Origin: Ferrovaceae bacterium
GTDB lineage: Bacteria; Pseudomonadota; Gammaproteobacteria; Burkholderiales; Ferrovaceae
Assembly (NCBI GenBank): GCA_027449685.1
Contig: DAIDLC010000006.1
Location: forward strand, 1 to 64,000
Length of the DNA: 64,000 bases
Reading direction: 5' to 3'
The translations under genes were made by a program, and so were the position numbers. Under the pieces are notes generated by a model. That model was given only the letters and a program-made list of their open reading frames with translations, did not search any database and was not told where the DNA came from. Each line of letters opens with the position of its first letter. Position 1 is the first letter of the stretch. Shown here piece after piece: positions 29,444 to 46,422 of the stretch.

Positions 29444-30547
29444 CTAAATCAGAGAGAGTAGAGCGGCAGGGATCTCGCTCAGTTGGGCCTTGATGCCCAC
29501 CAGATCCACGGTAGTGCCACTGCCATGGGCGATTTCCGTATATGGTCCGGTACTGCTGCCCTGATAGAACAGCAGATAGGAGCTATTGGTCCCGTTGGTG
29601 CTGGTCTCTTGAACAAATCCCGGGCTGATTTGGTTGAAGCTGACCTGGGAGGAAGGCGTGATGGTGGCAGAGGATCCATTGGCGAATAATTCCTGCATCT
29701 GGGTTACTGCGCCGTTGGACCCAAAGGTAAAGTTCACACGATCTTCCGGTTGCACTGCAAGCAGCGTGGTTGCTGTTCCGGGTTGAATGGTGGTGGTAGA
29801 CTCAGCTGCCACCGCATAGAGCGTGGAGCCAGAGGGTTGCGTGTAGGTGGTGCTTTCGATACTGTGTCCTTCGATCGAGGTTTCGGTAATCGTCGAGCCG
29901 TTGACTGTAAAGGTTGCCGTGGGTGAAATGTGCTGATTCTCGCTAACCGAGAAATTGGAACCGGAAAAAACTTCTTGGACACCGGTAACTTGCCCTCCTG
30001 AAAGCGTGAAGGTATAGCCTTTGGTAAAACCGGAAGCCGTTGTGGTGCTTGGATTGGCCCAAGTGGTTGTGTCCTGCGTGACTTGATACAAATTACTGCT
30101 GGTGGCTTCGGGGGAATACTGAAGGACTTCCGTGGAGCTAGTCCCTGTGATCGTTTCAGTTACGGTATTGGCAGTAGTGTCCACAGTGAAGGTAGCATTG
30201 GTGGGTAGATTCATGTTGAAAGTCCAGTTACCATCCACATGGGTCATCCCGGTGACCTGACCCGAGGTGATGGTAAATCCGAACCCCTGAGGCGTAGTAA
30301 GCCCCCCGCCGAACCCGTGGTTGCCATCACCGCCACCGAACCCGTGGTTGCCATCACCGCCGCCGAACCCGTGGTTGCCATCACCGCCACCAAAGCCCTG
30401 ATTACCGCCACCGTTGTCGTCTTCTGAGTTGTTACCGAGCCCCTGGCTGGAAGAAAAAAATCCATTACTACTGGAGGTCGAAGACCCGCTGGGTGAATTG
30501 TAGATGCCGTTAAAAAAAGAATGTTCCATATAATCAGATTGTTCCAT
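29444..30547 (-). CDS. Ser/Thr-rich repeat protein without signal peptide
   Basis: The protein has 367 residues. After a Ser/Gly-rich start comes a run of nine-residue units (GGGDGNHGF, about residues 50-80), then three diverged 80-residue beta-rich repeats. These open with FGFTITSGQVTGMTHV, KGYTFTLSGGQVTGVQEV and VNFTFGSNGAVTQMQEL, and each later carries a VTETITGTSS- or ITETSIEGHS-like strand. It has no signal peptide or membrane helix; composition (Ser, Thr, Gly, very few Cys or Lys) is that of a secreted surface protein, perhaps exported by type I secretion. GAGGAG lies before the ATG. Function unknown. Confidence 0.75.
   Translation of the reverse strand: MEQSDYMEHSFFNGIYNSPSGSSTSSSNGFFSSSQGLGNNSEDDNGGGNQGFGGGDGNHGFGGGDGNHGFGGGDGNHGFGGGLTTPQGFGFTITSGQVTGMTHVDGNWTFNMNLPTNATFTVDTTANTVTETITGTSSTEVLQYSPEATSSNLYQVTQDTTTWANPSTTTASGFTKGYTFTLSGGQVTGVQEVFSGSNFSVSENQHISPTATFTVNGSTITETSIEGHSIESTTYTQPSGSTLYAVAAESTTTIQPGTATTLLAVQPEDRVNFTFGSNGAVTQMQELFANGSSATITPSSQVSFNQISPGFVQETSTNGTNSSYLLFYQGSSTGPYTEIAHGSGTTVDLVGIKAQLSEIPAALLSLI
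30306..30412. repeat. 27-bp tandem repeats inside a gene
   Basis: About three near-identical 27-bp units (core GAACCCGTGGTTGCCATCA) plus one diverged unit encode GGGDGNHGF in frame. The length being a multiple of three lets copy number vary without breaking the gene. Confidence 0.9.
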
Positions 30548-30843: not shown

Positions 30844-31347
30844 ATGAGAGCGTTAACGATGACTTCAGTACGACAATGGGCTGGCTCGATGGTATTTGTA
30901 TGTACCGCTTTTTGGGTTGGGCCGGTGATGGCTCATGGGGATGTCACGCCACATCCGGTGGATACGTCGACCCTCAAACCACTAGGCAAGGATTGGATCG
31001 AGCCTAATCCGTACCGCGGCAACGACAAGGCGGTGGCTGTTGGGGCCGAAGGCTATCTGCATAATTGTGCAGCTTGCCACGGTTTAAATGCGGTATCGGG
31101 GGGGGTGGCGCCAGACTTGCTGGCACTGAATCGTGATTGTCTGGCATTTCCCTCAGGGCCAAAGCGGGAGGATTGTCTGAAGGACGTGGATGATTACTTC
31201 AAGGATGTCACCCTCAACGGCCGCAAAAACAGCGAAGGACGTATCATCATGCCGGCTTATGGAAGCGTGTTTACGCAGGAGGCCGTGTGGGCCATCAAGT
31301 CCTATATCGATGCGCGCAGCGTGCAGGAACAGGACAAACAAAAATGA
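30844..31347 (+). CDS. PedF-like c-type cytochrome
   Basis: The 167-residue protein has a signal peptide ending in GPVMA and then HGDVTPHPVDTSTLKPLGKDWIEPNPYRGNDKAV. This is close to the PedF cytochromes that take electrons from quinoprotein alcohol dehydrogenases. One haem site, NCAACHG, and a distal Met in GRIIMPAYG are visible. An internal ATG at 30859 is an equally good start. No dehydrogenase gene is adjacent, so its electron donor is unclear. Its stop codon abuts that of the convergent glutamate-synthase-domain gene. Confidence 0.85.
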   Translation: MRALTMTSVRQWAGSMVFVCTAFWVGPVMAHGDVTPHPVDTSTLKPLGKDWIEPNPYRGNDKAVAVGAEGYLHNCAACHGLNAVSGGVAPDLLALNRDCLAFPSGPKREDCLKDVDDYFKDVTLNGRKNSEGRIIMPAYGSVFTQEAVWAIKSYIDARSVQEQDKQK

Positions 31348-32961
31348 CTATACCGTCCATTGCGTAGGTTGAGCGCTGAGCCAATAGGAGCGATACGGTT
31401 CTGGAAGGTCACCGCAATTGTTCTGCGCAGACTGCAAAAGAATGTTTTCTGGCAGATCGGTCAGGATGTGCGCCAGGGAGACCACCGTACCGCTGGACAT
31501 TCTGCGCATGAGATGGTGTTTATCGATGCGGGCAGGGTTGTCTAATCCCGTGGCAGCTGTGAGTTCCATCAAGGCTTGCAAGGTGTGCTGATGATAGTTC
31601 CTGACTCGCGCTGCCCGGTCTGTCACCACCAGCGCGCGTTGCCGCAAGGGGTCCTGGGTGGTGATGCCTGTAGGGCAATGCCCCGTATGACAGTTTTGCG
31701 CTTGAATGCAGCCCAGGGCAAACATGAATCCTCGGGCCGCATTGCACCAGTCGGCTCCCATAGCCAAAGTCCGCAGGAGATCAAAGGCAGAAATGATCTT
31801 GCCCGAAGCCCCCAGTCGAATCTGCTGGCGCAGACCCAAACCGCGTAAGGTATTGTGAACCAGATGTAGTCCCTCCTGTAACGGCATTCCTACGTGGTCT
31901 GTAAATTCCAGGGGCGCAGCACCCGTTCCTCCCTCTGCGCCATCGATGACGATAAAGTCTGGCGTGATCCCTGTGTTGTGCATGGCCTTGGCCAGAGCAA
32001 ACCACTCCCAAGGGTGGCCCAGACATAACTTGATGCCCACGGGCTTTCCGCCCGCGTGTTCGCTGAGCATTTCCAGCCACTGCAGAAGTTCGATGGGAGT
32101 ACTGAAAGCCGTGTGAGCGGCTGGCGAAATACAGTCCTGTCCCAAAGGCACACGGCGCGTTTGGGCAATTTCCGGGGTAACCTTTCCAGCGGGCAAAACA
32201 CCGCCATGACCGGGTTTGGCACCTTGAGAGAGCTTGATCTCGATCATTTTGATCTGTGGCTGTTGTGCGACTTCGGAAAATCGCTCCAGACTGAATGCCC
32301 CCTCTGGAGTGCGACACCCAAAATATCCCGAGCCAATATTCCAGATCAAATCACCCCCATGAACCACGTGATGGGTAGAAACCGATCCTTCCCCGGTATC
32401 GTGTGCAAAATTTCCCAGTTTTGCCCCCAGATTCAACGCTTGAATGGCGTTTCCGGAAAGAGCGCCAAAACTCATGGCGGAAATGTTCAATAAAGATAAG
32501 GAGACGGGCTGTTTTCGACGCGGGCCCACAAGGATACGAAAATCTGCCGATTCCGGTTTTCCTGGAACCATGGCGTGATTGAGCCATTCGTAACCAGCCG
32601 CATAAACGTCCATGCGTGTCCCAAAGGGGCGCTTATCCGTCTGGTGCTTGGCCCGTTGATACACAATGGCACGCATGGTGCGTGAAAAGGGGGTGGGAGT
32701 GATGTCATCTTCAACAAAATACTGGCGGATCTCTGGGCGAATATATTCCAGGATAAAACGCAGATTTCCCAGAATGGGATAATTCCGGCGAACGGCGTGG
32801 TGGGGTTGCCAAAGATCCAGAAGCCCCAGTAAAAACAGCAAAAAACAGCCAAACCCAAGCCCGTGTAACCACGGGCTCAAATGAGGCAAGCCCAGAAGGA
32901 GCAGCGAGCAGACCCAGGATAGATGCAGGGGCAGATAGCGGCGGACCAACCATTTTCTCAT
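31348..32961 (-). CDS. Membrane-anchored glutamate-synthase-domain FMN/Fe-S protein
   Basis: The product has 537 residues from the ATG at 32961 (GGAGAAG upstream; the longer TTG start lacks one). Two membrane helices (about 10-55) precede a GltB central-domain fold: ISAMSFGALSGNAIQALNLGAKLGNFAHDTGEGSVS and KLSQGAKPGHGGVLPAGKVT. FMN-site residues lie in DFIVIDGAEGGTGAAPLEF, and CIQAQNCHTGHCPTG has the C-x5-C-x4-C spacing of the 3Fe-4S site. No glutaminase domain is present. This family is widespread but its reaction is not settled. Confidence 0.85.
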   Translation of the reverse strand: MRKWLVRRYLPLHLSWVCSLLLLGLPHLSPWLHGLGFGCFLLFLLGLLDLWQPHHAVRRNYPILGNLRFILEYIRPEIRQYFVEDDITPTPFSRTMRAIVYQRAKHQTDKRPFGTRMDVYAAGYEWLNHAMVPGKPESADFRILVGPRRKQPVSLSLLNISAMSFGALSGNAIQALNLGAKLGNFAHDTGEGSVSTHHVVHGGDLIWNIGSGYFGCRTPEGAFSLERFSEVAQQPQIKMIEIKLSQGAKPGHGGVLPAGKVTPEIAQTRRVPLGQDCISPAAHTAFSTPIELLQWLEMLSEHAGGKPVGIKLCLGHPWEWFALAKAMHNTGITPDFIVIDGAEGGTGAAPLEFTDHVGMPLQEGLHLVHNTLRGLGLRQQIRLGASGKIISAFDLLRTLAMGADWCNAARGFMFALGCIQAQNCHTGHCPTGITTQDPLRQRALVVTDRAARVRNYHQHTLQALMELTAATGLDNPARIDKHHLMRRMSSGTVVSLAHILTDLPENILLQSAQNNCGDLPEPYRSYWLSAQPTQWTV

Positions 32962-33348
32962 GCGGGACTTCTCCAAGGGATTACCGGGAACTGGCGTTGT
33001 GCGTTTCCCAGAAAGATCCTCCTCCTCGCTTTGGTTCTGGAGGACGACCGCCAGATTCAAACAGACTCCTTTCTACCACTGGGTACGCAAAAAAGTATTG
33101 CAAAAGGTGAGCCGACTTACAATAACCCAAAGAAATGCATATTCTTGTAAATACTCAAATTGGTTATTGACGAAGGCCTGTGGTCTGTTTAACATCCGTC
33201 ATAAAAGGTCCCCGACTATTACAGATTTCCCCTCATTGGCTGTAAATCGGTCATCTGACGTCTGGTCGGCTTCCTGTGTCTGGCCCCTTTGTCCGCTGCG
33301 GTATGCAACCGGGCCGTTTTTCACTCCAAGACTGACGAGATCGAAGCG
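32962..33348. other. Divergent promoter region
   Basis: This 387-base gap separates the glutamate-synthase-domain gene and the five-haem cytochrome gene. It is AT-rich between about 33090 and 33180 (TTGCAAAAGG, TTACAATAACC, AATTGGTTATTGACG), where promoters in both directions probably lie. No gene or clear repeat was found. Confidence 0.4.
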
Positions 33349-35451
33349 ATGTCCATGAGCAATCATTCCCTGTTGTTGAAGCGCGTTTTTTTGATCGTCA
33401 GCGGTTTTATGGTCAGTATGCTCAGTGGAGTTCTTGCGGCCCAGGATCACCCGGGGGACACTCGGGAGCAGCCGACCGACGCGCTGGTGGCGCGTGATGG
33501 GACGGGCGATGTGGCCGATCTTCTTACCCGCGGCACCTATTTGGCCCGCATGGGAGACTGTGAGGCCTGCCACACCGCACCAGGGGGCAAGCGCTTTGCC
33601 GGGGGGGTCCCCTTCAAGACGCCGGTAGGTGTCATCTACTCCACCAATATCACTCCGGAGCCCGTCAGCGGCATTGGGCGCTATACCTTTGAGCAATTTG
33701 ATCGCGCCATGCGCCAAGGTGTTGCGGCGGACGGCCACCCCCTCTATCCCGCCATGCCCTTTCCGTCGTTTGCCAAGGTGTCGGCCGAAGATATGCGGGC
33801 GTTGTACACCTACCTGATGAAAGCGGTTGAGCCGGTGCGCCAGACCAATCGGGAAAGCGATATTCCTTGGCCTTTCAGTATGCGCTGGCCTTTATCCCTC
33901 TGGAAGCTGTTCTTTCTGGACGACACGCCGTTTACCCCCGACACGACCCACGATGCAAGCTGGAATCGTGGGGCGTATATCGTTCAAGGTCTTGGACATT
34001 GCGGCTCCTGCCACACGCCACGGGGCATTGGTTTTCAGGAAAAGGCCATGGATCAGCACGGGGTCCGGGGGGTCGATTTCCTGGCAGGCTCTACCGTGGA
34101 AGGCTGGCATGCCAAGAACATTCGCGGGATTGCTACAGCAGCCGAACTGGTGCAATTACTCAAAACCGGACGCAATGCGCACACCAGTGTCTATGGCACG
34201 ATGACGGAAGTGGTGCACTTTAGCACGCAATACCTCTCTACTGCGGATCTGGATGCGGTGGGCCAGTATCTGGAAAGCCTGCCACCCGTTCAAAGGCAGA
34301 CAGCGGTTCGGAAAACTCCGGTAGCAAGTAAACCAGACGCGCTTTTCACCACGGCAGGGGGCCTGGGTTACGTTCAGTTTTGCGCCAGTTGTCATCGGCT
34401 GGATGGCCGGGGTGTAGCCCCCTTGTTTCCCCCGCTGGCAGGCAATTCGGCCATTTTATCCGAAGATCCCACCTCGCTGATCCATATCCTTCTGGAAGGT
34501 GGCCAAACGGCGCAAACCCAAGCTACTCCACGCAGCTTTGCCATGCCGGAATATGGGGGGCTGAGTGATGCGGAACTGGCCCAGATACTGAGCTTCATCC
34601 GTTCCCAGTGGGGCAATGATGCAGGGGCCATTTCGGCCAGGAATGTTGCCAACGTACGCCAGGAAGTGCTGACCCGTGCCCCTGTACCCCCTGCTTTCAA
34701 TCCGCCGCGGTTGGCAACCATCCTGCAGCAAGCCAACGCCCAGGAGGTCATTCGTGGTGTGCAGCTGATCCTCGATACTAAAAGAATGCTGCCCCAGCAG
34801 GTGGGCGCTCAAATGAATTGCACCAGTTGTCATCTGCAGATCGGAACCATGGCCAAAGCCTCACCGTATGTGGGGCTGGCGGGGATATTCCCGGCTTATT
34901 CGCCGCGTGCCGGTCGGGTTATCGACTTGCAGGAGCGCATCAATGGGTGCATGAAACGCTCCATGAATGGCAAGCCGTTAGCGCGGGATTCTCAGGAAAT
35001 GCGGGAGATGGTGGCTTACTTTGAGTGGCTGCGGCAGTTTGCCACGGCCCAGGACAAAACGCCCGGGCGCGGCATCGGGCACATCCCATCTACGCTGGTT
35101 CCGGACCCTGTACATGGCGCCAAGGTCTACCAGGATGCTTGCGCAGTGTGCCATGGCAAGGACGGAGAGGGAACCCGGGAGGCCGATGGGGCCTTGCAAT
35201 TCCCGCCCTTATGGGGACCAGATTCCTTCAATCTGGGTGCAGGGATTGCCCGCACCTTCAAGGCCGCGGCTTTCGTCAAAAGCAATATGCCCATCGCGCA
35301 TGGCCCAGGGTTTCCCCTGGGCCAAGGGGGGTTGACGGATCAGGATGCCGTGGATGTGGCGCAGTATTTTACGCATCAACCGCGTCCTGATTTCGCCGCT
35401 AAACCGCACGATTGGCCCAGGGACCCCAAACCTGCAGACGCCCGATACTGA
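33349..35451 (+). CDS. Five-haem cytochrome c: alcohol-dehydrogenase-type plus TsdA-like fusion
   Basis: The protein has 700 residues after a signal peptide (VFLIVSGFMVSMLSGVLAA). Five CXXCH sites occur in order: CEACH, CGSCH, CASCH, CTSCH and CAVCH. The first three domains (to about residue 420) resemble the three-haem subunit of membrane alcohol/gluconate dehydrogenases (GGVPFKTPVGVIYSTNITPE, PMPFPSFAKVSAEDMRALYTYL). The last two resemble diheme TsdA/SoxA-type cytochromes: NCTSCHLQIGTMAKASPYVG, ERINGCMKRSMNGKPL and EMREMVAYFEWLR. The lone Cys in RINGC could be a haem ligand, as in thiosulfate dehydrogenase. No catalytic dehydrogenase partner lies nearby. Confidence 0.9.
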   Translation: MSMSNHSLLLKRVFLIVSGFMVSMLSGVLAAQDHPGDTREQPTDALVARDGTGDVADLLTRGTYLARMGDCEACHTAPGGKRFAGGVPFKTPVGVIYSTNITPEPVSGIGRYTFEQFDRAMRQGVAADGHPLYPAMPFPSFAKVSAEDMRALYTYLMKAVEPVRQTNRESDIPWPFSMRWPLSLWKLFFLDDTPFTPDTTHDASWNRGAYIVQGLGHCGSCHTPRGIGFQEKAMDQHGVRGVDFLAGSTVEGWHAKNIRGIATAAELVQLLKTGRNAHTSVYGTMTEVVHFSTQYLSTADLDAVGQYLESLPPVQRQTAVRKTPVASKPDALFTTAGGLGYVQFCASCHRLDGRGVAPLFPPLAGNSAILSEDPTSLIHILLEGGQTAQTQATPRSFAMPEYGGLSDAELAQILSFIRSQWGNDAGAISARNVANVRQEVLTRAPVPPAFNPPRLATILQQANAQEVIRGVQLILDTKRMLPQQVGAQMNCTSCHLQIGTMAKASPYVGLAGIFPAYSPRAGRVIDLQERINGCMKRSMNGKPLARDSQEMREMVAYFEWLRQFATAQDKTPGRGIGHIPSTLVPDPVHGAKVYQDACAVCHGKDGEGTREADGALQFPPLWGPDSFNLGAGIARTFKAAAFVKSNMPIAHGPGFPLGQGGLTDQDAVDVAQYFTHQPRPDFAAKPHDWPRDPKPADARY

Positions 35452-39082: not shown

Positions 39083-39709
39083 TTAAGCAGGAAGACGACT
39101 GGCGGGTAGTCGTTCCAGGAAGGTTAGAAGGCATTGCAGGATAAACCCCGGTTCGGGGGGGCACCCTGGAATGCACAGATCCACGGGGGTTACCTCGGAC
39201 AAGGCCCCATGGGTGGCATAGCTTTCCCCAAATAATCCGCCGCTACAGGCGCATTCACCGAGAGCAACCACGTACCGGGGACGCGGGGTGGCCTCGATGG
39301 CTCGCAGCAGCGCTTGTACCATGTTACGGGCCACCGGGCCGGTCACCAGCAACAGGTCGGCATGACGGGGGCTGGCCACAAACCGGATTCCAGCACCCTC
39401 CAGGTTGTAGTAGGGGTTGCTCAGAGCGTGCATTTCCAGTTCGCAACCGTTACAGGACCCGGCATCCACGGCGCGTATGGTCAAGGCACGACCGACGATT
39501 TTCAACAGCCGTTGGTGTGCTTCATGGGGAGCCAGATCGCGTGGCGCAGCGCACAGCACCGGGATTTCGGAAGGGGTTTGCGTTAGCCCAGGGTCTGACC
39601 CGTGATTGGTGTCAGGTGTCAGAGAAGTGGCGCTGCTTGGCCGCGTCAGGGAGCCGGGTTTTTCGGTGCACAGACCATGTCGGGTGATCTGGTTGAATAA
39701 TTTCCACAT
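39083..39709 (-). CDS. hyfI: HyfI/HycG-like Fe-S small subunit
   Basis: The product has 208 residues. After a variable N-terminal 60, the NuoB/HycG fold appears: DAGSCNGCELEMHALSNPYYNLEGAGIRF, LVTGPVARNM, ALGECACSGGLFGESYATHG and PVDLCIPGCPPEP. The cysteines in CNGC, CAC and PGC supply a full set of ligands for the proximal 4Fe-4S cluster. It is the last gene of the hyf-like operon, 69 bases after hyfG. A HyfH ferredoxin subunit, expected between them, is missing. Confidence 0.9.
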   Translation of the reverse strand: MWKLFNQITRHGLCTEKPGSLTRPSSATSLTPDTNHGSDPGLTQTPSEIPVLCAAPRDLAPHEAHQRLLKIVGRALTIRAVDAGSCNGCELEMHALSNPYYNLEGAGIRFVASPRHADLLLVTGPVARNMVQALLRAIEATPRPRYVVALGECACSGGLFGESYATHGALSEVTPVDLCIPGCPPEPGFILQCLLTFLERLPASRLPA

Positions 39710-39778
39710 GATTATTGGGCTTCCTTCCAGGCCCAGCCAAGGTCTGGACGCTTTTGCCCTTGGGTGGGCAGTGGGAGA

Positions 39779-41332
39779 CTATTGATCATGGCCAGAATAA
39801 CAAAGATTGAATGATTTGTTGATCAGGGGAAAATCGGGCACGATGTTCCCCAGGATGGCGTGTTCCAGTACCGGCCAGTTTTGCCAGGAGGGGTCATGCA
39901 GATGGATGTCACGCAGGGTGAGAGAATCGCGGTGATTTTCCAACTGTAACGCCACCTGGATTTCGCCACGCCAACCTTCCACGCGCCCCAATCCCCGCAC
40001 CGCATGGGTTGATGCCAGGTTCTGTTGGGCAGCGACGGCGGGTCCTGGCGCCGGCAGATGATCGAGAATGAGGCGAATCAGGCGCAGGGATTCGAGCGTT
40101 TCATCAAATCGCACAGCAACCCGAGCGGCCACATCGCCTTCTTCCCGCAGTGCCGCTTGAACATCCAGAGCGTTGTAGGGTGCCCAGTTCCCATGGCAGC
40201 GCAAATCAGCGGCCATGCCACTGGCGCGACCAGCAAGGCCTGTCAGCCCCAGCTGTCGAGCCAGGCCGGGCAAGACCTGGCCCGTGGTTCCAAAGCGGTC
40301 CTGCAAGCCGGCATGGCCCTCGTAGATGTCCCGCAGGGTGAGTAATTCGGGTTCCAGCGCCACACACTGGGCATGAAGCAGGGCGCACTGGGTTTTGTCC
40401 AGATCTGTTCGCACACCGCCAGGCAGGATGGAATCCATCAAGAGGCGATGGCCAAACAGCGCTTTGGACAGGCGCAGCCAGTCTTCTCGCAAGCGCGAAA
40501 AATGCGCCAGCCCCACGGCAAAACCCGCATCGTTGCCCAAGGCGCCCAAATCCCCCAGATGATTGGCCACCCGTTCCCGTTCCAGCAGCAGGGCGCGCAA
40601 CCACAGGGTGCGTTCCGCTACCCGCCAGTCCAGAGCGGCTTCCAAAGCCATGCAGAAGGCCCAGGAGTAAGCCACCGTACTGTCACCACATAACCGGGCG
40701 GCCAACTCATGACCCAGCAGGGCGGGTCGTTGCCGCCAGCGTGCTGCAGCGCCCTTATGGGTATAGCCCAGATGGGCCTCCAGGCGCAAAACTTTTTCTC
40801 CTACTACCGAAAAGCGGAAATGCCCCGGCTCGATGATGCCGGCATGAATGGGGCCCACGGCAATTTCATGTACCCCCTCACCAGTTACTGGAACAAAGGC
40901 ATAAGGTTGGGGTGGGGCGCTTTGCTCACGCAGCCAACAACCATGGTCCAGCCACGGACGTTGGTCCGGCGCGTCAAAGGCCAGACTGAAATCAGCCAGG
41001 TCGACGGCGGCGCGTTGCAGACGATTGGCTGCGGGAAAGAGCGGACTCAGGTCTGGAATCTTTTGCGCTTTACCCAGCTCCAGCCAGACCCACGCCAGGG
41101 TTTCTTCCAGGGCGTAGGTGACATGCAGCAGGGTTGCATGGGCATCCGGCCAAAGTGCCACCAGACGACCTCCGGCCTGGTGGATGCGCTGGGCAAGGGG
41201 CCACCACTGCGCGCCGGGGCAAGGTCCATGCCAGACGGGAAAGGGGCCAGGCAGGCGTTGGCAGTCGGGACATAGTTCCTGCAGCAGGCGTTGCAGAATG
41301 GTCCGTTGGAGGGGGGGGGCTGAGGAGGTCAT
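39779..41332 (-). CDS. hyfG: HyfG/HycE-like large subunit with incomplete NiFe site
   Basis: The product has 517 residues: an N-terminal NuoC-like part (to about 160), then a NuoD/HycE-like domain from EIAVGPIHAGIIEPGHFRF. The two NiFe-binding CxxC motifs are half lost. The first reads LCGDSTVAYS (HycE: CGIC) and the C-terminal one reads NLCYSGHDQ (HycE: CYSC), so each keeps its first Cys only. Hydrogen chemistry is therefore unlikely. This fits the Ehr (energy-converting-hydrogenase-related) complexes that sit between group 4 hydrogenases and complex I. The real electron donor or acceptor is unknown. Confidence 0.85.
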   Translation of the reverse strand: MTSSAPPLQRTILQRLLQELCPDCQRLPGPFPVWHGPCPGAQWWPLAQRIHQAGGRLVALWPDAHATLLHVTYALEETLAWVWLELGKAQKIPDLSPLFPAANRLQRAAVDLADFSLAFDAPDQRPWLDHGCWLREQSAPPQPYAFVPVTGEGVHEIAVGPIHAGIIEPGHFRFSVVGEKVLRLEAHLGYTHKGAAARWRQRPALLGHELAARLCGDSTVAYSWAFCMALEAALDWRVAERTLWLRALLLERERVANHLGDLGALGNDAGFAVGLAHFSRLREDWLRLSKALFGHRLLMDSILPGGVRTDLDKTQCALLHAQCVALEPELLTLRDIYEGHAGLQDRFGTTGQVLPGLARQLGLTGLAGRASGMAADLRCHGNWAPYNALDVQAALREEGDVAARVAVRFDETLESLRLIRLILDHLPAPGPAVAAQQNLASTHAVRGLGRVEGWRGEIQVALQLENHRDSLTLRDIHLHDPSWQNWPVLEHAILGNIVPDFPLINKSFNLCYSGHDQ

Positions 41333-41353
41333 GGTAGACAGGGCAAGAGGGGG

Positions 41354-42823
41354 TTATCCACCCAATAAACGGGCTGATTGCTGGTACCACTGTTCCAGGG
41401 CCGGGGGAATGTAGAGTCCCAAGCAAAGCCCTGCGGCCAGATGAACGAAAACAGGAATCAATGCCGGCGGGTGACGCAAGGTAGGTAGGGTGGTGGAACC
41501 AAATACCATGGGTTGAATGCGTCCAAAAATGGCGGCAAAAGCCACTCCTAACGCCAGCAATAAAAATGGCGTGGCCCAGGCATGGTCACGCATGGCGGTG
41601 GTCACGATCAAAAATTCACTGGCAAAGACCCCGAAGGGGGGCATCCCCAAAATGGCGAAGGATCCCAGAATCAAGCCCCAGCCCAGGGTGGGGCTGATCT
41701 GCAAAAGACCTCGAATATCCTCCATGACTTGGGTTCCTGCGCGTTGGGTGGCATGGCCCACTGCAAAAAATATGGAGGATTTGATCAGTGAATGCACCGT
41801 CATATGCAGTAATCCCGCAAAGTTGGCCACCGCTCCACCCATGCCGAAAGCAAAGGTGATCAAACCCATATGTTCGATGGAAGAGTAGGCAAACAGTCGC
41901 TTCACATCCTTCTGCCGGGAAAGAAAAAAAGCAGCCGTCACCACCGAGAGCAGCCCGAATCCCATCAGTAGTTGGCTTGCCAGACTGGAGTGTAACGCCC
42001 CATCAGTCAGGATCTTGCAACGTAGCAAGGCATAGAGGGCGACATTCAACAGAAGACCGGACAAAACGGCCGAAACGGGTGTGGGTCCTTCGGCATGGGC
42101 ATCGGGAAGCCAGTTGTGCAGGGGGACCAGCCCCACCTTGGTCCCATACCCGATGAACAGAAAGGCAAAAGCCAGCGTCATGATGTCCGGGTCCAGGGCC
42201 CCCTTCACGGCATTCAGTTGGGTCCAGAGCAGCGCCCCCCCGTCCGGGGGAATGATTTTTTCTGCCGCCATGTACAGCAAAACGGTTCCAAACAGGGCCT
42301 GTGCGATGCCAACGCCGCACAGGATGAAATATTTCCATGCGGCCTCAAGGCTGGCTGGTGTTCGGTACAGACTGACCAACAACACGGTGGTCAGGGTTGC
42401 CGCCTCCATGGAAACCCACAGGATGCCCATGTTGTTGGTGGTAAGGGCCACCAGCATGGTAAAGCTGAAGAGTTGGTACATGCTGTGATACAGGCGCAGG
42501 CGATTGGGCGTCATGCGGCCATGGTCCCGCTCCACGCGCATATAGGCACGGGAAAACAGCGCCGTGGTCAGGGCGACGAAGGCCGTCAGACTGACCAGAA
42601 ACACATTGAGAGAATCCAGAAAAAAGCTGTGATCCCAGGCGGAGGAGGGGCCGTTGGCGATGACCTGACGGGTCAGGTCGCAGGCGCCCAAAAACGTCAA
42701 CAGGCAAAACAGGGCGTTGACTTCGGGGGCTTTGTCGCGTTGTCCCATCAGGGCCAAAACCAGACTGCCCAGCAAAGGCAGGAGCAGGACGGGCAGCAAG
42801 GGGTGCCAAAGGTCATTCATCAC
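41354..42823 (-). CDS. hyfF: HyfF-like antiporter-type membrane subunit
   Basis: This 489-residue protein belongs to the NuoL/M/N (Mrp-type antiporter) family, with about fourteen helices. GYGTKVGLVPLHNWLPDAHAEGPTPVSAVLSG carries the conserved channel Lys and a PxxWLPxAHxxAP-like signature, and FAYSSIEHMGLITFAFG and LLHMTVHSLIKSSIFFAVGH carry the further Lys/His. An upstream Glu lies in ILWVSMEAATLTTVLLV. Proton (or sodium) channel residues thus look intact. It overlaps hyfE by 11 bases. Confidence 0.9.
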   Translation of the reverse strand: MMNDLWHPLLPVLLLPLLGSLVLALMGQRDKAPEVNALFCLLTFLGACDLTRQVIANGPSSAWDHSFFLDSLNVFLVSLTAFVALTTALFSRAYMRVERDHGRMTPNRLRLYHSMYQLFSFTMLVALTTNNMGILWVSMEAATLTTVLLVSLYRTPASLEAAWKYFILCGVGIAQALFGTVLLYMAAEKIIPPDGGALLWTQLNAVKGALDPDIMTLAFAFLFIGYGTKVGLVPLHNWLPDAHAEGPTPVSAVLSGLLLNVALYALLRCKILTDGALHSSLASQLLMGFGLLSVVTAAFFLSRQKDVKRLFAYSSIEHMGLITFAFGMGGAVANFAGLLHMTVHSLIKSSIFFAVGHATQRAGTQVMEDIRGLLQISPTLGWGLILGSFAILGMPPFGVFASEFLIVTTAMRDHAWATPFLLLALGVAFAAIFGRIQPMVFGSTTLPTLRHPPALIPVFVHLAAGLCLGLYIPPALEQWYQQSARLLGG

Positions 42824-43472
42824 GCAATTGTTCCAGGTTGCTCATATCCAGGCTGTCAAACTGTTCGCGAATGTGAAACAGAAACACACCCAAAATCAGA
42901 ATACCCACCAGAACATCCAGTGCAATACCCAGTTCCACCACCATGGGCATGCCGTAAGTGGCGGAAGTGGCCGCAAAAAACAGTCCGTTCTCCATGGAAA
43001 GAAAGGCAATGACCTGAGGCAAGGCCTTGGAGCGGGTGATCATGGTCATGAAGGACAGTAAAACGCAGGCCAGGGCAATTCCCAGGGTGCCCCGTGCCAC
43101 TGAGCTGGACATTTGCGAGAGCGGTTGTGCCAGGTAAAAGGCCAACATGACCAGCAGGATACCCAGCAGCATGATGGTTGGGATATTGATCAGGGTCTCT
43201 ACTTCGCGACGCACCCGCAGCCGATCGATGACGCGATAGAGTAAAGCCGGAATCAATAGTACCTTGAGTAACAGGGTGAGCAGTGCCGAATAGTACAAAT
43301 GGGGTTGGCTGGTGACGTAGCCCACCACAGTGGTGGAAAGCACCAGTGTGATGCCTTGCAGGGTAAACAAATGGATGAGCGTGAGAATGCGTCGCTGGGC
43401 CAGCATGGCAAAAGAAAGCATCAGCAATAACGCCGCCAAAAGGTTGATGAACTGCGCGATCAGGGCGCTCAT
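42813..43472 (-). CDS. hyfE: HyfE-like membrane subunit
   Basis: The 219-residue protein matches the normal HyfE length. The ATG at 43472 overlaps the hyfC stop (ATGA); the 312-residue frame of the track runs back into hyfC and is wrong. The first half has three helices resembling NuoK-type proteins (ILTLIHLFTLQGITLVLSTTVVGY), and the second has three more ending in ALDVLVGILILGVFLFHIREQFDSLD. PQVIAFLSMENGLFFAA contains the buried Glu typical of NuoK. It is part of the membrane arm. Confidence 0.9.
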   Translation of the reverse strand: MSALIAQFINLLAALLLMLSFAMLAQRRILTLIHLFTLQGITLVLSTTVVGYVTSQPHLYYSALLTLLLKVLLIPALLYRVIDRLRVRREVETLINIPTIMLLGILLVMLAFYLAQPLSQMSSSVARGTLGIALACVLLSFMTMITRSKALPQVIAFLSMENGLFFAATSATYGMPMVVELGIALDVLVGILILGVFLFHIREQFDSLDMSNLEQLRDE

Positions 43473-44431
43473 GCGGCTTTTCCAAAGGGAGTGAGAAGAA
43501 GGGTGATCAGCATGCCAATCACGGCCAGCAGAAAAGCCGTGGCCAAAAATTCCGGCACCCGAAAAATGCGCATCTTGGCGCTGAAGGTTTCCAGTAAGGC
43601 CAGCAATGCTCCTCCCACAGCCAGCTTGAACACCAACAGAGGCAGCGCCAGCAGGAGCAATAAGGGGGTTTTGGCGTTGGCGATTCCCCAGGGAAAGAAC
43701 AAGGCCAATCCCATGCAGGAGTAAGCAAATAACTTCAAGCTGGCGGCCCATTCAAACAGAGCCAGGTGGCGTGCGGAGTATTCCAGGATCAGAGACTCAT
43801 GAATCATGGTGAGTTCCAGATGGGTAGTGGGATTATCCACCGGAATGCGTGCATTTTCTGCCAGGGAGACCAGTGTGAAAGCCACACCGGCAAAGGCCAG
43901 GCTGGGATGAATCACCAGGGTTTGGTGGGCCAACCCTTCCACGATGGTGGACAGGGAAGTGGCTCGGGAAATGAGGGAAGCCGAGAATAGCACCATCAGT
44001 AATGCGGGTTCGGCCAGAAATCCGATCAGCATGTCTCGTCGTGCGCCCAAAGTCCCGAAGGCGGTTCCCACGTCCATGGCGGCCAAGGACAAAAACACCC
44101 GCGCCAGGGCAAACAAGCCCACCAGGGCAATGGCATCAGCCGCGGGGGCCAAGGGCAGATCCGTGGACAGCGTGGGGATGATGGCGCTGGCCAATACCAT
44201 GCAGCCAAAAACGATATAGGGTGCGGCGCGGTACAGTGGGGAGGCCTGGTGGGCCACGATCAATTCCTTGTGAAACAGTTTGTGCAAGGTGTAGTACGGT
44301 TGGAACAGGGAAGGGGCCGTCTTGTTTTGCAACCAGGCCCGCCACTGGTTGACCCAACCGGTAAGCAAGGGAGCCAACAGCAAGGCCAGCAGGATATCCA
44401 GCAACTGGGCCAATAGACTAAGCCCGTTCAT
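43469..44431 (-). CDS. hyfC: HyfC-like (NuoH-type) membrane subunit
   Basis: This 320-residue protein has eight or so helices and is the subunit that links the Fe-S arm to the membrane arm. Family features: PLLTGWVNQWRAWLQNKTAPSLFQPYYTLHKLFHKE near the start, AMDVGTAFGTLGARRDMLIGFLAEPALLMVLF, and VSLAENARIPVDNPTTHLELTMIHE, the conserved acidic loop. Its start overlaps the hyfB stop by four bases, so the two are translationally coupled. Confidence 0.9.
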   Translation of the reverse strand: MNGLSLLAQLLDILLALLLAPLLTGWVNQWRAWLQNKTAPSLFQPYYTLHKLFHKELIVAHQASPLYRAAPYIVFGCMVLASAIIPTLSTDLPLAPAADAIALVGLFALARVFLSLAAMDVGTAFGTLGARRDMLIGFLAEPALLMVLFSASLISRATSLSTIVEGLAHQTLVIHPSLAFAGVAFTLVSLAENARIPVDNPTTHLELTMIHESLILEYSARHLALFEWAASLKLFAYSCMGLALFFPWGIANAKTPLLLLLALPLLVFKLAVGGALLALLETFSAKMRIFRVPEFLATAFLLAVIGMLITLLLTPFGKAA

Positions 44432-46422
44432 CGTTTCACCAGCAAAAGAATGGCGATGAGGGTGAGAAAACTGTACAGCAGGTAGCGTGCAATGCGGCCT
44501 TGCTGCAAGTGTCCCACGGTGCGGGAACAGACGTTCAGCATCAGCACGACGGGTTGATAGAGCCAGTTCCAGAAGGGATCGAAAATTTGAACCCGGTAGT
44601 GGGGGGCCTGATCGAAGGCGCTGGGTAGCTCGCGTTGGAGTGTGAAAAAGGGCTCAAAAATCTGCCGGATGGGCTGTCCAAAACCTTCCGCAGTATCTTG
44701 CATGCGCGGGGTTTGGGCGGCAAAACCACAGTCCCAGGGTGCCCCACGGCGCAGTTGCCCGTGGTAAAACCAGCGTACGAAGGCATAGGCCAGCAGTGAG
44801 CAACTCACAACGCCCAGCAGGAAGATGATTGGTCCGTAGCTGGCACTTTGCTGTGCCACCGGGATCAGCAACCAGAAAGACTGTTGGGTGACTTCCGCCA
44901 ACGAGGTTCCCGTCAGAAGGTGCATGGTTTCATGCGTGAAGGCCAGTAAGGGAGCGGGAAACAATCCCAGACCCAGACAACCTGCCACCAGCCAGAGCAT
45001 GCCCAGGCGTTCCAGCCAGCGGGCATCCTTGGCCTGTGCCAGCTTGTCCTCCCGGGGTTGCCCCAAAAAAATCACGCCATAAAATTTCACCATGGTGTAT
45101 CCCGCCAAAGCAGCCACCAGGGCAATGACCGCAGCCACCACCGGTACCAGCATGTTGAGGAAGGAGTTGGGTAGCCCGGGAGTAAACAGAAAGCTTTGCA
45201 GTAACAGCCATTCGGAAACGAATCCTCCCAGTGGAGGCAAGCCAGCGCTGGTCAGGGTGCCGATCAGGGTGAGCCAGGCCACCCAGGGCATGGTGCGAAT
45301 CAACCCTCCCAACTTGCCCAAGCTGCGTTCATGGGTGGCGTGCAGCACCGAACCAGTGGCCAAAAACAGCAGGCTTTTAAAGCAGGCATGGCTGAAGGCA
45401 TGATACAGCACGGCACTCAAAGCCAGGGCCGCCATGGGGTACATGTGATAGGCGCTGAAGAGTGCCGCCAACCCGGTACCTGCCAGCATGAGACCCATGT
45501 TTTCTACCGAGGAATAGGCCAGTAGGCGCTTCATGTCCACCTGAACCGCCGCATACACCACGCCAAACAAAGCAGTGGCCAACCCCAGTCCCAGTAGCAC
45601 TACGCCCCACCACCATTGGGGGGTATGCAAAATATCGAAGGTGATGCGCAACAGCCCATACAGCGCGGTTTTCAGCATGACGCCGCTCATCAGGGCCGAA
45701 ACGGGAGACGGTGCTGCGGGGTGGGCTTCTGGAAGCCAGATATGCAGCGGCAGCATGCCCGCCTTGGTACCAAACCCGAACAGAGCCAGTAAAAAGCCCA
45801 GGGATGCTGCTGCGGGGGGTAACTGCTGGGTCCGCAGATTCTGAAACGTATAATCACCCGTGTGGGCTTGCAAGACTCCGAAGCACAGTAAAATGCCCAC
45901 TGCACCCACGTGAGCCATGAGCAGGTACAGATATCCGGCGCGCCGGATTTCTGCCAAACGATGGTTGGCGATGACCAAAAAATAGGAGGAGAGAGCCATG
46001 CTTTCCCAAAACACCATGAAGGCATAGGCGTCGTCGGCAATGATCACCAGGGTCATGCTGGCCAAAAACAGATGAAATTCAAAACAGAGCAGACCAGGCG
46101 GGGTTCCCTCACCCTGACGGAAATACCCTCCGGCAAAGAGGGAAATTCCGGCGGAGCAGGCGCCGATGAGCATCAGAAAAAATGCAGCCAGGGCGTCTAG
46201 ACGAAAATGAAAGGGTAATCCGGGAAGCCCCAGAGGCAGAATGAGCGTATGTGGGGGCGTATCGAGCGCCAGCGCTGCGGCCCCGAACAAACATAATCCC
46301 ACCAGAGCGCCTGCGGGAAACAAAACCCGCGCAACCAGTTTGAGGTGACGTAAGGCCATCAGGCCCAGCGTGCCAATCAGCAGCCAGGCCAGTACCGCCC
46401 ATAGAACGAAATCCAGTGGCAT
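44428..46422 (-). CDS. hyfB: HyfB-like antiporter-type membrane subunit
   Basis: The product has 664 residues and is first in the operon. It is a NuoL/N-like pump subunit with long C-terminal helices: FGFGTKAGMLPLHIWLPEAHPAAPSPVSALMSG, LLAYSSVENMGLMLAGTG, YHAFSHACFKSLLFLATGSVLHATHERSLG. Upstream, FMVFWESMALSSYFLVI carries the Glu of the pump. All main channel residues are present. With hyfF it gives the complex two antiporter-like modules. The ATG is the best start; the divergent tadA promoter region lies upstream. Confidence 0.92.
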   Translation of the reverse strand: MPLDFVLWAVLAWLLIGTLGLMALRHLKLVARVLFPAGALVGLCLFGAAALALDTPPHTLILPLGLPGLPFHFRLDALAAFFLMLIGACSAGISLFAGGYFRQGEGTPPGLLCFEFHLFLASMTLVIIADDAYAFMVFWESMALSSYFLVIANHRLAEIRRAGYLYLLMAHVGAVGILLCFGVLQAHTGDYTFQNLRTQQLPPAAASLGFLLALFGFGTKAGMLPLHIWLPEAHPAAPSPVSALMSGVMLKTALYGLLRITFDILHTPQWWWGVVLLGLGLATALFGVVYAAVQVDMKRLLAYSSVENMGLMLAGTGLAALFSAYHMYPMAALALSAVLYHAFSHACFKSLLFLATGSVLHATHERSLGKLGGLIRTMPWVAWLTLIGTLTSAGLPPLGGFVSEWLLLQSFLFTPGLPNSFLNMLVPVVAAVIALVAALAGYTMVKFYGVIFLGQPREDKLAQAKDARWLERLGMLWLVAGCLGLGLFPAPLLAFTHETMHLLTGTSLAEVTQQSFWLLIPVAQQSASYGPIIFLLGVVSCSLLAYAFVRWFYHGQLRRGAPWDCGFAAQTPRMQDTAEGFGQPIRQIFEPFFTLQRELPSAFDQAPHYRVQIFDPFWNWLYQPVVLMLNVCSRTVGHLQQGRIARYLLYSFLTLIAILLLVKR

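Follow-up and report, generated by a model that had tools for sequence, protein, structure and literature searches.

Domain architecture of the fusion

TsdA is a sulfur enzyme that interconverts thiosulfate and tetrathionate, and the triheme electron-carrying module of the alcohol dehydrogenase (ADH) type usually partners an alcohol or sugar dehydrogenase. Which of these chemistries is served by a single gene that combines the two modules? Such a gene is found at 33349..35451 on the forward strand of the window analysed here, a stretch of 64,000 nucleotides from a Ferrovaceae bacterium. Its reading frame runs from an ATG at 33349 to a stop codon ending at 35451 and encodes 700 aa with no internal stop. 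Five CXXCH sites are present (C71EACH, C218GSCH, C345ASCH, C491TSCH and C598AVCH), against about 0.005 expected from the amino-acid composition of a 700-aa protein.

Residues 57-447 (33517..34689, +) are homologous to ADH subunit II and comprise three c-type haem domains, with 8gy2_B as the best match in a phmmer search of PDB sequences (E 3.7e-103), and they also match the cytochrome subunits of glucose and fructose dehydrogenases. For residues 448-686 (34690..35406, +) the same search returned thiosulfate dehydrogenase TsdA (4wqc, E 3e-54) as well as TsdBA through its TsdA portion (5lo9, E 5e-32). This part consists of two CXXCH haem domains, the first of the SoxA/TsdA type, and Pfam reports cytochrome c domains in the 700-aa protein together with SoxA-TsdA_cyt-c (PF21342) at 487-558. 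An AlphaFold2 model built on 32 fusions, of moderate confidence (pLDDT 73, pTM 0.77), gave a TM score on the target of 0.70 with ADH subunit II, and a TM score of 0.82 with Allochromatium vinosum TsdA (AvTsdA; rmsd 3.0, 42% identity). The first-pass annotation had read motifs 1-3 as a triheme dehydrogenase subunit and motifs 4-5 as TsdA-like; the former is borne out by the match of 8gy2_B to residues 57-447, and the latter by the 4wqc match, PF21342, the motif RINGCMKRSMNG and the presence of the ligand residues checked. An assembly artefact or chance fusion is ruled out, as the junction is kept at about 47-58% identity across many genomes.

Since PF21342 spans SoxA and TsdA alike, the last two haems could also be taken for a SoxA-like unit, which would load thiosulfate onto a carrier protein and not form tetrathionate. 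We consider this highly improbable: grouping of these domains with non-TsdA cytochromes had been named beforehand as evidence against the TsdA assignment, but they match TsdA far better than SoxA among PDB sequences (3e-54 versus 5e-4), and the haem 5 domain with its Met647 is as in TsdA. SoxA identity of the module is also rejected on score, as it reaches 35 bits with the SoxA equivalog model, for which the cut-off is 110.

Export and membrane attachment

The N-terminus resembles a signal peptide (residues 1-31; 33349..33441, +), with the h-region VFLIVSGFMVSMLSGVLA followed by AQ, as judged from hydrophobicity and a cleavage site placed by eye. These residues hold the sole strongly hydrophobic segment of the protein (KD 2.2 over 19 residues). 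The cytochrome subunits II of alcohol, fructose and glucose dehydrogenases (8gy2_B, 7w2j_C and 8hdd_B) share the three CXXCH domains and the Met ligands with the fusion, whereas the N-terminus of the window copy is a signal peptide only, and the part of 8gy2_B past about residue 441 is replaced by TsdA. The triheme match stops 37 residues short of the 8gy2_B C-terminus, and TsdA starts there instead; according to the title of PDB entry 9jqa, the related fructose dehydrogenase has a hydrophobic C-terminal region. Among the relatives, several fusions (for example L064, L073 and L140-L142) have a hydrophobic stretch at the N-terminus in which no cleavage site is evident, indicating that membrane attachment differs between lineages. 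The earlier proposal that the fusion joins thiosulfate or tetrathionate chemistry to a membrane electron chain is therefore upheld in its first half, by the gene context described below, but not in its second, given the cleavable-looking Sec signal and the lack of any other strongly hydrophobic segment.

Haem ligands and active site

Sites were mapped on an alignment with AvTsdA, in which the chain index agrees with the published numbering (His53, Cys96, His164, Lys208 and Met209; PMC6879331). The equivalents of Cys96, His53, His164, Met209, Arg82, Arg92 and Ser100 are C534, H495, H602, M647, R520, R530 and S538, respectively, and all seven are invariant in 32/32 fusions. The haem 4 site C491TSCH495 (34819..34833, +), corresponding to TsdA haem 1 of the active site, aligns with AvTsdA Cys49-His53. 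The motif RINGCMKRSMNG (residues 530-541; 34936..34971, +) aligns without gaps and brings C534 onto the haem ligand Cys96, R530 onto Arg92 and S538 onto Ser100. Cys534 is thus predicted to be the axial ligand of the haem 4 iron, with the alignment and the modelled fold both in agreement with TsdA.

The haem 5 site C598AVCH602 (35140..35154, +), equivalent to TsdA haem 2, aligns with AvTsdA His164 and is followed by N646-M647 (35284..35289, +), where the Met is the probable ligand of haem 5 and the Asn takes the position of the switchable Lys208. This position is Asn in 28 of the 32 fusions, while the next residue is Met in all 32. Asn is likewise found there in TsdBA of Marichromatium purpuratum (MpTsdBA) by alignment, and in C. 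jejuni TsdA as Asn254 (PMC6879331). With Asn in place of Lys208, haem 5 should be His/Met-ligated and not switch its ligand. The Met residues M136, M285 and M399 of the triheme half are invariant among the 32 fusions, as are the haem His residues, and these Met residues align with Met of 8gy2_B; the three haems of this module are therefore probably also His/Met-ligated.

In comparison with AvTsdA (4wq7; PMC4423706, PMC6879331), the fusion has in common the dihaem module with a Cys-ligated active haem (41-42% identity), the equivalents of Arg82, Arg92 and Ser100, and the conserved Met at the second haem. It differs in the position of TsdA behind a triheme module and in the frequent Asn for Lys208. 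MpTsdBA (5lo9) is similar in that an N-terminal multihaem electron-accepting unit precedes a C-terminal TsdA, besides the shared Asn before the haem-2 Met. However, TsdB is a dihaem protein of another family, whereas the partner in the fusion is a triheme subunit of ADH type, and the TsdA modules of the two fall in separate supported clades, so that the fusion is not a TsdBA.

The locus and its own genome

The gene stands by itself in the window. Upstream lies a PedF-type cytochrome c550 (30844..31347, +; TIGR04494, 153 bits, cut-off 122), which is a possible electron acceptor of the fusion; as a dedicated partner it is rejected, since no such gene was seen at the other fusion loci. Between the two, in antisense orientation, is a gene with a glutamate-synthase domain (31348-33060), assigned by domain match; its fold is of the FMN type, but it is no periplasmic dehydrogenase partner. 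The downstream gene reads as an iron superoxide dismutase (by eye). No sulfur gene adjoins the fusion in the window itself, and a domain search of the neighbourhood revealed no quinoprotein or flavoprotein dehydrogenase partner. The first-pass statement that no such protein is nearby accordingly holds for dehydrogenase partners, with the FMN-type fold of the adjacent gene at 31348-33060 as a caveat.

Further away in the window, genes for NADH:quinone oxidoreductase-type 20 kDa and 49 kDa subunits and proton-antiporter subunits form a cluster (39083-46422, -) that resembles a group 4 hydrogenase or formate-hydrogenlyase-like complex. The gene at 29444-30547 (-) encodes 367 aa, with GGGDGNHGF repeats close to the N-terminus, and Pfam gave no match for the product.

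The homology of the triheme module to dehydrogenase subunits, and the occurrence of a PQQ alcohol dehydrogenase elsewhere in the genome, might suggest that the fusion serves an alcohol or aldose dehydrogenase and that its TsdA part is an appendage. This is hardly credible, because that PQQ alcohol dehydrogenase, the only one in the genome (contig C11), has its own adjoining PedF-type c550, no GMC oxidoreductase was matched in the genome (an 83% complete assembly, which makes the absence provisional), and no dehydrogenase gene was recognised beside the fusion at the loci inspected by eye, where neighbours were profiled in part. The fusion locus in this respect differs from those of the dehydrogenase subunits II, and a free-standing relative is located in a gluconate dehydrogenase operon. 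On C11 (L038), the PQQ dehydrogenase of the methanol/ethanol family, the PedF c550, and pqqB and pqqC (by eye) make up a complete alcohol-oxidation locus. The 582-aa PQQ-like protein of this contig was also considered as a tetrathionate hydrolase and rejected, being the PQQ alcohol dehydrogenase (749 bits) with its own PedF.

Sulfur genes are present elsewhere in the same genome. Near the end of contig C3, a gene for the non-haem thiosulfate dehydrogenase (TSD) lies beside DsrO, a CobB homologue, an NAD(P)-binding oxidoreductase resembling DsrL, and dsrA, and the start of contig C1 carries an SBP that is 73% identical to the SBP of Ca. Gallionella acididurans. DoxD gave no match in this 83% complete assembly, an absence that is again provisional. 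The host is likely a sulfur-oxidising organism, and an oxidative direction of the reaction would follow from this. A stand-alone single-haem domain of the SoxA/TsdA type (148 aa) was also observed on contig C4 (L040:4351-4797, -), with CETCH and QIRSC, of which the latter may supply a Cys ligand; it scores 46 bits with PF21342 and 53 with the SoxA model, whose cut-off is 110. It adjoins thioredoxin-like and OsmC-like genes (by eye), and most genomes of the family yield similar matches.

Gene neighbourhoods in other genomes

We compared 33 fusion loci with 50 free-standing triheme loci as a control. SBP (sulfur-cluster binding protein) or a TtrS-like sensor occurs at 17 of the 33 fusion loci and at none of the 50 controls. 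The control loci were equally devoid of each single type of neighbour (0/50 throughout): the SBP, which is a ModA/CysP-like solute-binding protein (12/33), a DsrE-family gene (9/33), a TsuA-like Sulf_transp gene (4/33), and a TtrS-like sensor kinase with a PhnD-type sensor domain together with a TtrR/FixJ-like regulator (5/33). A TtrS-TtrR pair adjoins the fusion in eight loci of alpha- and betaproteobacteria, and the order fusion-TtrS-TtrR is seen on plasmids of Thioclava, Ideonella and Rhizobium. The TtrS-like scores (300-339) are under the curated cut-off of 750. Half of the fusion loci lack all of the sulfur neighbours that were looked for. The SBP and TtrS-like neighbours support thiosulfate or tetrathionate chemistry.

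The order TSD-SBP-fusion is found in three loci, from Ca. Gallionella acididurans, a Nitrospirota bin and an alphaproteobacterial bin, where TSD is the thiosulfate dehydrogenase that NCBIfam lists as NF052225 (cut-off 300; the Gallionella gene scores 386 bits). Acidithiobacillus ferrooxidans carries tsd-sbp-doxDA clusters (PMC6335251); similar TSD and SBP genes adjoin the fusion in relatives, and are located elsewhere in the genome studied here, while the fusion occupies the position of DoxDA. Two genomes of the same family (L135 and L137, genus g2) have an operon-like TSD-SBP-TsdB-like-TsdA arrangement. Taken together, these arrangements indicate that the fusion replaces known thiosulfate electron-accepting units. 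In L135 and L137, a non-haem TSD and a cytochrome TsdA are thus encoded side by side. In another genome of the family, TSD, SBP and a DoxD match lie together on a single short contig. The fusion of Zoogloea, like those of a Rhodocyclales bin and of a third bin (L074), precedes a TsdB-like cytochrome, after which comes a second, ordinary TsdA.

The TSD-SBP-fusion order, the occurrence of both TSD and SBP in the genome of the window, and the reported inability of A. ferrooxidans TSD to reduce ubiquinone or cytochrome c (PMC6335251) could also mean that the fusion chiefly accepts electrons from the non-haem TSD or from a different sulfur enzyme, with a TsdA module that binds substrate and contributes minor turnover. 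We regard this as unlikely, because the active-site residues are fully conserved, most fusion-bearing genomes of the family have no TSD, and TSD is likewise missing from the TtrSR-linked loci.

Proposed function

In view of its domains, ligand residues and gene context, the fusion is most likely a periplasmic, self-contained thiosulfate dehydrogenase/tetrathionate reductase. The TsdA module would convert two thiosulfates into tetrathionate at haem 4, or catalyse the reverse. As in characterised TsdA, thiosulfate would be attached to Cys534, the putative ligand of the haem 4 iron; the known TsdA mechanism involves a Cys-S-thiosulfonate intermediate (PMC4423706). Electrons may then pass from haem 4 to haem 5 (His602/Met647) and on to the three His/Met haems of the ADH-type module, which would act as a built-in electron-accepting unit comparable to TsdB in TsdBA, before a periplasmic cytochrome, an oxidase or a quinone site takes them up. 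The oxidative direction would be expected in the host, where a TSD gene lies at the end of the dsr cluster, while the fusion may work as a reductase in the TtrSR-linked relatives.

None of the open papers searched describes a fusion of a triheme module with TsdA, although an earlier mention elsewhere is possible. The fusion apparently represents a conserved, undescribed variant of the theme of TsdBA, or TsdA plus electron acceptor, rather than a new kind of enzyme. More tentatively, and with the balance somewhat against it, it might provide a third kind of exit for the electrons released when thiosulfate is oxidised to tetrathionate, in which an ADH-type triheme unit was recruited to TsdA and became exchangeable with DoxDA and TsdB-TsdA after TSD-SBP, serving both as the missing acceptor of the non-haem TSD and as an enzyme of its own. 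If the proposed electron route is true, a respiratory module for sugars and alcohols has been reused for sulfur, and the fusion gives a way to approach the electron acceptor of the Acidithiobacillus-type TSD.

Distribution and evolution of the fusion

The survey of this architecture suggested in the first-pass annotation shows that the fusion is widespread and has a two-gene counterpart. Full-length fusions were identified in more than 30 other genomes, belonging to alpha-, beta- and gammaproteobacteria and one Nitrospirota bin. Within the family, full-length copies are present in seven further genomes, and four genera possess the fusion when the window is included. In an eighth genome (G025) a stretch of N in the assembly breaks the copy, and an apparent deletion there was rejected for this reason. 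About 17 of 300 sampled genomes of the same order carry the fusion. Its bearers include bins or isolates of Gallionella, Zoogloea, Rhodoferax, Comamonas, Tepidiphilus, Thiobacillus, Sulfuriferula, Janthinobacterium, Methylobacter, Pelagivirga and Rhodopseudomonas, and it is plasmid-borne in Cupriavidus metallidurans CH34 (pMOL30), Thioclava, Ideonella and Rhizobium. Databases label it "c-type cytochrome" or "cytochrome C", and under such labels the fusion can be misassigned when genomes are searched for tsdA or alcohol dehydrogenase subunits. Several carriers are culturable (C. metallidurans CH34 with pMOL30, Thioclava, Comamonas terrae and Tepidiphilus), making a direct test of the sulfur role possible.

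In the two-gene version the triheme gene is directly followed by a tsdA with its own hydrophobic N-terminus, as observed in Paracoccus aminovorans, a Stenotrophomonas bin, Aliidiomarina and a contig titled Bacillus subtilis. The pair on the last of these (SK6B4, L094) groups with proteobacterial ones, and the assembly is probably contaminated. In the TsdA tree, the fused and two-gene forms constitute one clade (99), separate from MpTsdBA and from the family's ordinary TsdAs. The triheme tree unites 31 fusions in one clade (99) with the two-gene versions apart, and places the L073 fusion with the two-gene forms. A single origin of the triheme-TsdA pairing, as one clade, is not rejected (AU p 0.246), while the position of L073 among the two-gene forms implies that fusion or fission occurred more than once.
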